Of a stretch of DNA of 64,000 nt, positions 20,148-27,538 are shown in pieces. Made by a program: the position numbers and the translations under genes. Under the pieces are notes generated by a model. That model was not told the DNA's origin, made no database searches, and saw only the letters and a list, made by a program, of their open reading frames with translations. Source of the stretch: Chryseobacterium gleum (lineage in GTDB: Bacteria > Bacteroidota > Bacteroidia > Flavobacteriales > Weeksellaceae); the NCBI RefSeq assembly GCF_900636535.1, contig NZ_LR134289.1, positions 2,790,001 to 2,854,000 on the forward strand. Direction: 5' to 3'. The stretch's first letter is position 1, and the number at the start of each line of letters is the position of its first letter.

Positions 20148-21773
20148 ATGGCAAAAGAAATAAAATTCGATATTGAATCAAGAGACGCGCTAAAGAGAGG
20201 GGTAGATGCATTGGCTAATGCAGTAAAAGTAACTTTAGGTCCTAAAGGGAGAAACGTAGTGATCGAAAAATCTTTCGGTGCTCCACACGTAACTAAGGAC
20301 GGTGTTTCTGTAGCAAAAGAAATCGAACTTGAAGATAAGGTAGAAAACATGGGAGCTCAGATGGTAAAAGAAGTAGCTTCCAAAACCAATGATATTGCAG
20401 GAGACGGTACTACTACCGCTACTGTATTGGCACAGGCTATCGTAAGAGAAGGTCTTAAGAACGTAGCTGCCGGTGCTAACCCGATGGATCTTAAAAGAGG
20501 GATCGACAAAGCGGTAACTGCTGTTGTTGAAAACCTTAAATCTCAATCTCAGGAGGTTGGAGATTCTTCAGAAAAAATCAAGCAGGTTGCTTCTATCTCT
20601 GCTAACAACGATGATACCATCGGTTCTTTAATCGCTGAAGCGTTCGGGAAAGTTGGTAAAGAAGGAGTAATCACTGTAGAAGAGGCTAAAGGTACTGATA
20701 CAACGGTAGACGTTGTAGAAGGTATGCAGTTCGACAGAGGATACCAGTCACCTTATTTCGTGACAAACCCTGAGAAAATGTTAGCTGAACTTGAAAGCCC
20801 ATATATCCTTTTAGTAGAGAAGAAAATCTCTTCCATGAAAGAATTGTTACCGGTTCTTGAGCCAATTGCACAAGGTGGTAAGTCTCTATTAATTATCTCT
20901 GAAGAAGTTGAAGGTGAAGCTTTAGCTACTTTGGTAGTAAACAAACTAAGAGGTTCCCTTAAAATTGCTGCTGTAAAAGCTCCTGGATTCGGAGACAGAA
21001 GAAAAGCAATGTTAGAAGATATCGCGATCCTTACAGGTGGACAGGTGATTTCTGAAGAGCAAGGTTTCACTATGGAAAACATCTCTTTGGATATGCTTGG
21101 AACTGCTGAGAAAGTAACGATCGACAAAGACAACACAACGGTTGTAAACGGAGGTGGTGACGAAGCTAAAATCAAAGGAAGAGTAGCTCAGATCAAAGCT
21201 CAGATGGAAACTACAACTTCTGATTACGACAGAGAAAAACTTCAGGAAAGACTGGCTAAGTTAGCTGGAGGTGTTGCTGTACTTTATGTAGGAGCTGCTT
21301 CTGAAGTGGAAATGAAAGAGAAAAAAGACAGAGTAGATGATGCCCTACACGCTACAAGAGCGGCTGTAGAAGAAGGTATCGTTGCAGGTGGTGGTGTTGC
21401 TTTAGTAAGAGCAATTTCTTCACTTGACAATCTTTCAGGATCTAACGCTGATGAAACTACAGGGATCAAAATCGTTAAGAGAGCTATCGAGGAGCCATTA
21501 AGACAAATCGTTGCCAACGCAGGGGGTGAAGGTTCTGTAATCGTTGCTAAAGTAGCAGAAGGAAACGGAGACTTCGGATACAATGCGAAAACTGACGAGT
21601 ACGTTCACATGCTTGAAGCAGGAATCATTGACCCAACTAAAGTAACAAGAGTTGCCCTTGAAAACGCAGCTTCTGTATCTGGAATGCTTTTAACAACTGA
21701 ATGTGTAATCACTGAAGTGAAGAGCGCTGAACCAGCTATGCCAATGGGTGGTGGAATGCCAGGAATGATGTAA
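20148..21773 (+). CDS. groL: Chaperonin GroEL (resident full-length copy)
   Basis: The protein has 541 residues and forms the 14-mer folding chamber with GroES. The nucleotide motif [11 protein letters not shown] (about 86-96), the apical-domain region and the C-terminal GGM tail ([11 protein letters not shown]) are complete. The last 60 codons and the terminator after the stop are reused as boundaries of downstream cargo: partial copies occur at 24111, 25888, 26476 and 27406. The resident gene itself shows no damage. Confidence 0.98.
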
Positions 21774-21802
21774 TAGCGAGTTGCTGAGACAATTTAATAT
21801 AT

Positions 21803-21834
21803 AAACCGTTCTACTTTGTAGGGCGGTTTTTTTC
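21803..21834 (+). terminator. groL terminator
   Basis: AAACCGTTCTAC, loop TTT, GTAGGGCGGTTT (21803-21829), then a run of T. The T-G wobble keeps the stem continuous. The same terminator, with covarying stem bases, closes the downstream groL-tail copies. Confidence 0.9.
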
Positions 21835-22034
21835 TGTATTAGTTTTTTAACTATATTTGGCCCTCTAAATAAAACCATGAAAGCATACATTATACAAACT
21901 TTAAACTTGAATCAAAGTTCTAAAAAGATTTAGCAATTAACTAAAATTGCATTCACACTATTTTTGCTTATAAATATTATATCTTCATGATCGTACCTGA
22001 TCACAATAAAAACGTTATAAAAAGAAAATCATAA

Positions 22035-26753: not shown

Positions 26754-26802
26754 TATCAACCGTAATTACAACAAAAAGCACATTCAAACCGATTAATCAA
26801 TC

Positions 26803-27354
26803 ATGAAAAAGTTCGCATTACTTATTTTTATATGTTTATGTATAAATCTGTTTTCACAAAAAAATATAATTCAAGATTTAAAAATTGTTGATTATGAATT
26901 AATATCAAATAATAAAATTGAAATTAAATCTTACGCTACATTAGATAAGAAAGGAAACTTAACCGTCTATTCAGATAGCTGGGATGGGAAAAACTATTTC
27001 CAATATACATTAACTTCAGAAGAAATTAACAAATTAAACTCATTATCTGGCAAAAATATTGAATCCTTTGTCAAACAAAAACAACTCAATAGGAATGAAT
27101 ATTTTGCAGGAAATCCAAGATTTATTTCTTATAAATCCAGCGGAAAAGTTTATAGTCTTTGCTTTATTGAGCCATTTATGAATAATGAATTTATGGAGAT
27201 CCTAAAAATTCTAAATTCAAAAATATACAAACATGATGAAACTGCTAAAATTCAAATGCAGACAAACGATTTCGAAAAAGTTGAAATTGAAATTATTGAA
27301 AGAAGCAAAGTAGATAATTACTTACCAACAAAAGCAGTTATTATTCAAAATTAA
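26803..27354 (+). CDS. Unknown secreted protein (cargo 5)
   Basis: The protein has 183 residues. A signal peptide covers about 1-19 (MKKFALLIFICLCINLFSQ). The mature part is lysine-, asparagine- and isoleucine-rich, with no motif I recognise. It stands alone between groL-tail copies D and E, with its own promoter-like element. Low G+C and the single-gene setting match the other cargos. A role as an immunity or surface protein is conceivable but unsupported. Confidence 0.55.
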   Translation: MKKFALLIFICLCINLFSQKNIIQDLKIVDYELISNNKIEIKSYATLDKKGNLTVYSDSWDGKNYFQYTLTSEEINKLNSLSGKNIESFVKQKQLNRNEYFAGNPRFISYKSSGKVYSLCFIEPFMNNEFMEILKILNSKIYKHDETAKIQMQTNDFEKVEIEIIERSKVDNYLPTKAVIIQN

Positions 27355-27405
27355 AAAACTCCCCTTTTAAAATATTCTCCAAAATCCGGAAACTTCAGAA
27401 AATGT

Positions 27406-27538
27406 CCGTGTTATCACTGAAGTAAAAAGCGCTGAACCAGCTATGCCAATGGGTGGTGGAATGCCAGGAATGATGTAACAGCGTAAGCTAAGACAAATTT
27501 AATATATAAACCGTTCTACTTTGTAGGGCGGTTTTTTG
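27406..27538 (+). repeat. groL 3'-end copy E with terminator
   Basis: This aligns with groL from about 21705 through the terminator. Over 22 codons there are three differences from groL (GTT, GTA, AAA), all synonymous and shared with copy A. The terminator stem is identical to that of groL. It starts about 50 nt after the stop of cargo 5 and is the last copy I find. Confidence 0.93.

Follow-up and report, generated by a model that had tools for sequence, protein, structure and literature searches.

A genus-wide array of single genes separated by copies of the groL 3′ end in Chryseobacterium, probably exchanged by homologous recombination

Integron cassettes carry one gene and one recombination site each, are inserted beside a fixed anchor and are reused in other arrays. 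The minimal mobile element of Neisseria, which has no mobile-element genes, has its cargo swapped via core-gene homology and has been linked to natural transformation. Many bacterial hotspots change fast without a recognisable mobile element, and the portion of the hotspot study drawn on here proposes recombination at the flanking core genes as the cause of change in integrase-free hotspots, with a link to natural transformation (Oliveira 2017, PMC5635113). For the T6SS orphan-immunity arrays of Vibrio cholerae, homology together with illegitimate joining is proposed in the part of the source used here, where the authors themselves draw the comparison with integrons (Kirchberger 2017, PMC5361080). 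Rhs C-terminal displacement, as treated in the cited part of the original description, would proceed by homologous recombination with circular intermediates, and the displaced pieces form arrays (Jackson 2009, PMC2935791).

The window (the whole stretch of Chryseobacterium gleum DNA analysed, 64 kb) contains an intact groL gene followed by five cargo units, four of which finish with a copied groL 3′ end (a groL tail) and one with a terminator-only copy, and then by an Abi-alpha gene (Table 1). Searching the genome with the last 186 bp of its groL plus spacer and terminator returned six matches, all inside 6 kb and none elsewhere, which bears out an earlier note on this DNA that had reported four tails of unequal start and one terminator-only form behind groL. 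Besides groL itself (21588-21836), the matches are the tails of cassettes 1 and 3 (87% identity each) and of cassettes 4 and 5 (92% each), and the copy in cassette 2 (93% over 29 bp, E 6e-4), which is weak alone, yet lies directly behind a cassette gene; terminators of similar sequence arise by chance in other genomes. Pfam matches agree with the earlier assignment of a propeller protein with a T9SS signal (PSII_BNR 2.7e-42, Por_Secre_tail 1.5e-11) and of the Abi-alpha gene (Abi_alpha 1.5e-18), and the remaining four cargo proteins of the window have no Pfam match at E 0.01. The earlier note knew of no described system of this kind, and a search of literature listings, mainly of open-access papers, likewise found no groL-tail cassette array.

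Table 1 Parts of the groL-anchored array in the window. Signed positions are relative to the groL stop.
Feature	Coordinates	Strand	Remarks
Intact groL, array anchor	20148..21773	+	541-aa ORF
groL 3′ end (-206 to stop), spacer and terminator	21568..21833	+	Segment recurring piecewise as tails; from the start histogram and 3′ ends of 138 loci
Cassette 1: leader, propeller gene C96 (22035-24101), groL tail 24111-24258 (-88..+60), terminator present	21834..24258	+	
Cassette 2: leader, membrane-protein gene C48 (24389-25003), terminator-only copy 25050-25078	24259..25078	+	"Membrane" from reading the sequence
Cassette 3: C76 "CTCL" gene (frames 25198-25410 and 25368-25889), truncated tail 25888-26002 (-184..-69), no terminator	25079..26002	+	
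Cassette 4: C161 gene (26004-26429), tail 26474-26671 (-138..+59)	26003..26671	+	
Cassette 5: leader, C123 gene (26803-27354), tail 27408-27540 (-70..+66)	26672..27540	+	
Leader type A (GGTTTCCCGTAAGG) and Abi-alpha gene (27682-28446), after the last tail	27541..28446	+	

To place this locus in its genus, we used a genome collection with one genome per species, in which the groL end was matched in 171 of 173 Chryseobacterium genomes (own included). We took 138 stretches around groL from 137 other genomes (L numbers; C numbers denote cargo families and WIN the window), and these, with the window added and L077, which has no full groL, removed, gave 138 loci, a sample of 138 of the 173 genus genomes (own included) that was drawn best matches first and is not random. 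The C-terminal end of groL is alike in 136 of the 138. Tails were counted in the 134 loci that extend 8 kb or more beyond groL (L080, L107, L108 and L157, with less than 8 kb, stand outside the count), after false tails due to miscalled groL ends in L084 and L124 had been removed; terminator-only copies (185 matches starting at -20 or later) were excluded, chance terminators being similar. Extra groL-coding tails occur in 84 of these 134 loci, at 1-7 each and 175 in total, with one tail in 41 loci, two in 17, three in 13 and four to seven in 13; with a minimum of 40 coding bases, the count is 83 loci and 158 tails. A second coding tail was absent from 22 genomes representing ten further genera in the family, where second matches were short and mostly terminator-like, in a search that scored two candidates per genome and may have let extra copies escape. 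The groL-tail array is genus-wide in Chryseobacterium. Relatives of the propeller cargo follow the same division, since none of seven outside Chryseobacterium has a groL-coding match within the 13.8-14.8 kb examined and three inside the genus have one nearby. Stretch L077 (genome G029) has at 2440-2686 a groL tail of about 247 bp, about 50 kb from the genome's other groL match (groL in L172), which suggests an ectopic array or a rearrangement.

Cargo content and order vary among genomes, in contrast to the uniform cargo order across relatives that the earlier note had named as evidence against its reading. The arrays contain 284 ORFs of 75 aa or longer, which fall into 167 families; 130 of these were seen in one genome's array only and 37 in at least two genomes, often at differing slots. 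Among the window's families, C96 is also present in the arrays of L037, L038, L060 and L111 (three of these were compared across the whole unit), C48 stands before other tails in L040, L042, L045, L048 and L073, and C161 has identical gene-tail spacing in L038 and L068. A longer C76 precedes tails in L068 and L059 as a single frame (230 and 238 aa, respectively); since two overlapping frames are found here and one in these two relatives, the C76 gene of the window looks split by a frameshift. The C123 gene of the window is 96-99% identical (by thirds) to its counterpart in L067; the gene occupies slot 4 in the window and slot 1 in L067, and past the terminator the similarity between the two loci is 0.48 (background). 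Several array states are one cassette apart, namely groL-C96 (WIN, L060), groL-C161-tail-C96 (L038) and groL-C76-tail-C161 (L068).

Single-gene cassettes recur in different arrays: 105 of the 245 cargo genes with tails on both sides stand alone between them, and these units provided 81 pairs of the same cassette from different genomes. Averaged over the listed pairs, homology covers 0.92 of the leader, 0.99 of the gene, 0.86 of the 3′ stretch and 0.93 of the tail, compared with 0.10 over the 200 bp past the terminator. Family C9 contributes 21 of the 81 pairs, some sharing sequence past the terminator (up to 1.00), and the other 60 average 0.03 there. The mobile unit seen in these pairs is terminator to terminator, comprising a leader, one gene, a groL tail and the terminator. 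Its left boundary is not always the terminator, as the leader is covered fully in 71 of the 81 pairs and to less than 0.7 in the other 10, where leaders differ between copies. Directly behind groL, 91 cargo families were found in 126 genomes; 18 of 24 families found both there and behind a tail keep their leader up to the terminator in one or more pairs (64 of 121 pairs overall). When averaged over all pairs, the linkage of cassette and tail is weak.

Leaders contain TAnnTTTG, the -7 promoter element of the phylum, in 105 of 224 cases compared with 24.3 expected from shuffling. Leader A, searched as a 14-mer with at most 3 mismatches and counted without a chance control, follows 39 of 83 last tails and 16 of 72 middle tails, and stands behind groL in 16 of 83 genomes with tails and 20 of 51 without. 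We rejected leader A as the ancestral downstream sequence because this pattern is a tendency only, and also strand bias as a sign of cassettes, which is regional (251 of 269 in arrays but 1952 of 2127 behind them). Palindromic repeats adjoin some cargo-tail and tail-tail junctions, e.g. in L038, L048, L053 and L083, and one such repeat, ATCCTTGTCAAGGTTTAAAACCTTGACAAGGAT, has 44 matches in 16 of the 138 loci.

Tails start anywhere from -206 to the stop, and 146 of the 175 coding tails reach +55 or beyond, the end of the terminator. Grouping 168 junctions by the sequence joined to the tail gave 96 types, in 15 of which the furthest start falls at -206 to -190 and in only 2 beyond -206 (-228 and -246); the tail of L077 (about 247 bp) also exceeds this limit. 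Free homologous recombination does not predict a sharp limit near -206. Heterology was rejected as the cause since groL is well conserved at -285 to -225; within the genus its 3′ part is most variable at about -360 to -330, with a dip at -210 to -196. In some close pairs, groL is 86-88% identical at nucleotides 1200-1400 compared with 97% in the body.

As protein, the tails have decayed, with the hairpin largely kept. Of the 106 tails that retain 80 or more coding bases, only 29 have an open frame as far as the stop, and in 35 gap-free comparable tails the ratio of nonsynonymous to synonymous differences from the nearest groL is 166:88 (1.9), compared with 5474:29303 (0.19) between groL genes. 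Hairpin energy averages -12.8 kcal/mol in 155 tails, compared with -16.2 in groL and -3.8 in shuffled sequence.

How tails came to be joined to cargo can be read from two families. In C39 the junction with groL, at about -137, falls on the stop codon itself, and in a tail-less C39 copy in the window (30378-30947) the gene end reads differently; C48 is joined to groL tails in several different ways. These varied joins point to repeated illegitimate joining. Beyond the tail-less C39 copy, the C40 gene (31118-31786) lies between direct repeats of 88-89 bp and 93% identity (30946-31033 and 31877-31965), and in L044 and L062 the outer genes flanking its position, C39 and C64, are side by side; C40 is a putative second, groL-independent insertion with a flanking duplication in the same window. 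Elsewhere in the window there is a 290-bp direct repeat of 74% identity (13009-13293 and 13392-13672).

Traces of recent exchange are preserved in cassette C139, whose gene is 99-100% and leader 98-100% identical in L054, L069, L112 and L113, with groL bodies 89-92% identical. The aligned copies match from the T-run of the terminator onwards and gradually diverge within the tail; in four of the six pairs, identity is down to 0.77-0.83 by 30-90 bp into it. The pair L112-L113 stays at 0.90-0.97 across 120 bp of tail; L054-L069 dips and recovers in the tail, and the groL ends of these two are near-identical, compared with 92% identity in the body. The marker in the far tail matches the genome's own groL in L112 and L113 and is of the other type in L054 and L069. 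C139 tails look chimeric, with a left part brought by the cassette and a right part belonging to the resident, and their varying right ends are expected from general recombination. To judge from its sequence, this one cassette in four species has undergone horizontal exchange with crossovers in core-gene sequence.

We propose, with a probability of about 0.73, that the locus is a mobile, integrase-free and integron-like cassette array anchored on groL and exchanged by homologous recombination at groL ends. A cassette would be a transcription unit made of a leader (often with TAnnTTTG), usually one gene, a decayed groL 3′ end and the groL terminator; in 94 of the 96 junction types the groL 3′ end measures at most about 206 bp. 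Exchange would occur where tails and groL ends recombine through the general (RecA-type) homologous pathway, presumably on donor DNA taken up from related cells and, since every strain has groL, with a landing site in every strain. Insertion would spare groL and leave the new cassette between two tails, both reusable. Founding would be an illegitimate join between a groL 3′ end and the end of a newly arrived gene, and the tails would shorten and decay later, retained for homology and as terminator, not as protein. Counting against this proposal are the limit near -206, the uneven C139 pairs, the leaders that differ in 10 pairs, the C9 pairs that share sequence past the terminator, the weak averaged linkage of cassette and tail, the nearness of tails to the groL of their own lineage and, should each cassette have arrived with a donor's groL end, the lack of an imported look at that end in 26 close pairs. 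The cross-species data support what the earlier note had proposed from a single sequence, repeated acquisition at the groL tail that yields a growing array, with the recombination between groL ends inferred. The exchangeable terminator-to-terminator unit, the genus-wide spread and recent exchanges ending within tails go beyond that note.

The strongest alternative is that arrays grew by sequential displacement alone, in which a donor groL end with its own cargo is anchored by homology in groL and joined illegitimately at its far end inside a resident tail, shifting old content downstream, with no later exchange between tails. The variable tail starts in 96 junction types, the C48 and C39 joins at or just past the stop codon, and the near-identical groL ends of L054 and L069 are all compatible with it, and the cited part of the work on V. 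cholerae T6SS arrays offers an analogous model (PMC5361080). We nevertheless consider it unlikely, because the same gene-tail junction occurs in several species at differing slots, so that whole cassettes move after founding, because in 26 close pairs the groL 3′ end is about as identical as the body and thus has no general import excess, and because the shared C139 stretch ends inside the tail, beyond the junction. Quite improbable is a site-specific mechanism, like that of integrons or of islands that target gene ends, in which the terminator hairpin is the substrate of a trans-acting integrase. It would account for shared leaders that reach the terminator and for tails that extend to its end, and the genome does have 12 Phage_integrase matches; however, none lies in the window, where the earlier note too had seen no integrase, and the nearest is about 90 kb away. 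The right boundary of C139 inside the tail, differing between pairs, argues against such an enzyme, and homology would also place left boundaries at the terminator, which every neighbour has.

A single ancestral array or segmental duplication, inherited vertically with differential loss, is the scenario that the earlier note had put forward as fatal to its own, and we give it almost no weight. It agrees with tails being nearer to their own lineage's groL than to a random groL: among 69 long tails from about the first 80 loci, including the window, the own groL has a better than average rank (mean 0.72-0.79 across coding bins), which would mean that exchange is commoner within lineages. However, the best match is another species' groL for 61 of the 69 tails and the own groL for 8, most cargo families are confined to a single genome's array, the junctions fall into many types, and the C139 gene is 99% identical across species 8-11% apart in the groL body. 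For most tails, recent in-place duplication can be excluded from these comparisons. A retro-copy origin (cDNA-like tails with a fixed 3′ end and variable 5′ truncation) was also rejected, as tails lie only behind groL here and are rarely closest to their own groL.

One of 126 cargo representatives matches Phage_integrase, and a strict integrase motif scan found none. The genome encodes Competence and DNA_processg_A domains, presumably comEC and dprA. Natural competence has been reported for two Riemerella species and, in the part of the source used here, Flavobacterium johnsoniae was not competent under the conditions used for Riemerella. The array amounts to a catalogue of exchangeable single genes, some with defence-system domains (SduA, AIPR, OLD-like TOPRIM, AbiTii, SLATT_5, Schlafen AlbA_2 and RelA_SpoT); AAA_15/AAA_21, PIN, Fic and a pPIWI-associating nuclease were also found among the scanned cargo proteins, where the richer Pfam yield stems from larger, hand-picked proteins. 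Many scanned proteins have no Pfam match and a good part look secreted or membrane-bound by eye. We claim no enrichment in defence genes, as PADLOC hits in 5 of 20 random cargo compared with 2 of 20 control families are too few for a difference.

A further-reaching interpretation, to which we lean slightly, is that the array is an integron equivalent run by host RecA, in which the 3′ end and terminator of a housekeeping gene serve as landing and cassette site, and genes are added, lost, reordered and traded without a mobile element while groL is always restored. If this is true, any Chryseobacterium cell could trade accessory genes, some of a phage-defence type, at no cost to groL because it is always restored. 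The locus suggests that a cassette array needs no more than general recombination and the end of a core gene to arise, and it keeps readable scars, the groL pieces, by which gains, exchanges and crossovers can be traced by sequence in more than 100 species.

Set against the systems described above, the groL array resembles an integron in its single-gene cassettes with one site per gene, its fixed anchor and the reuse of cassettes, and differs in that no integrase gene is present at the locus (in this genome, none lies beside the array), the leaders within cassettes are promoter-like and what the cassettes share as a site is a groL 3′ end whose length varies. There is no one fixed core position, as tail starts and C139 right ends both vary, and neither the own integrase nor the fixed crossover point of an integrative element targeting gene 3′ ends was found. 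Core-gene hotspots, as far as the cited part of that study describes them (PMC5635113), and the Neisseria element exchange content between two flanking core genes, whereas the groL array contains several copies of a single core-gene end, by which genes can accumulate singly. Like the T6SS arrays, in the part of that work used here (PMC5361080), the groL array grows by successive insertion beside a conserved region, pushing old genes downstream with no integrase known, and it has both a conserved anchor, groL, and non-homologous far-end joins in its 96 junction types. The T6SS arrays, however, are anchored on a secretion cluster and carry one weapon's immunity genes, while the groL array carries unrelated genes, each equipped with a leader and terminator of its own, and, unlike them, a copy of the anchor's 3′ end behind each gene. 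Homologous recombination and arrays are shared with Rhs, where, according to the cited part of that source (PMC2935791), the gene's own C-terminus varies, whereas groL stays whole and the sequence downstream varies. The groL array is integron-like in layout and Rhs- or T6SS-displacement-like in mechanism, and we assign it to neither.
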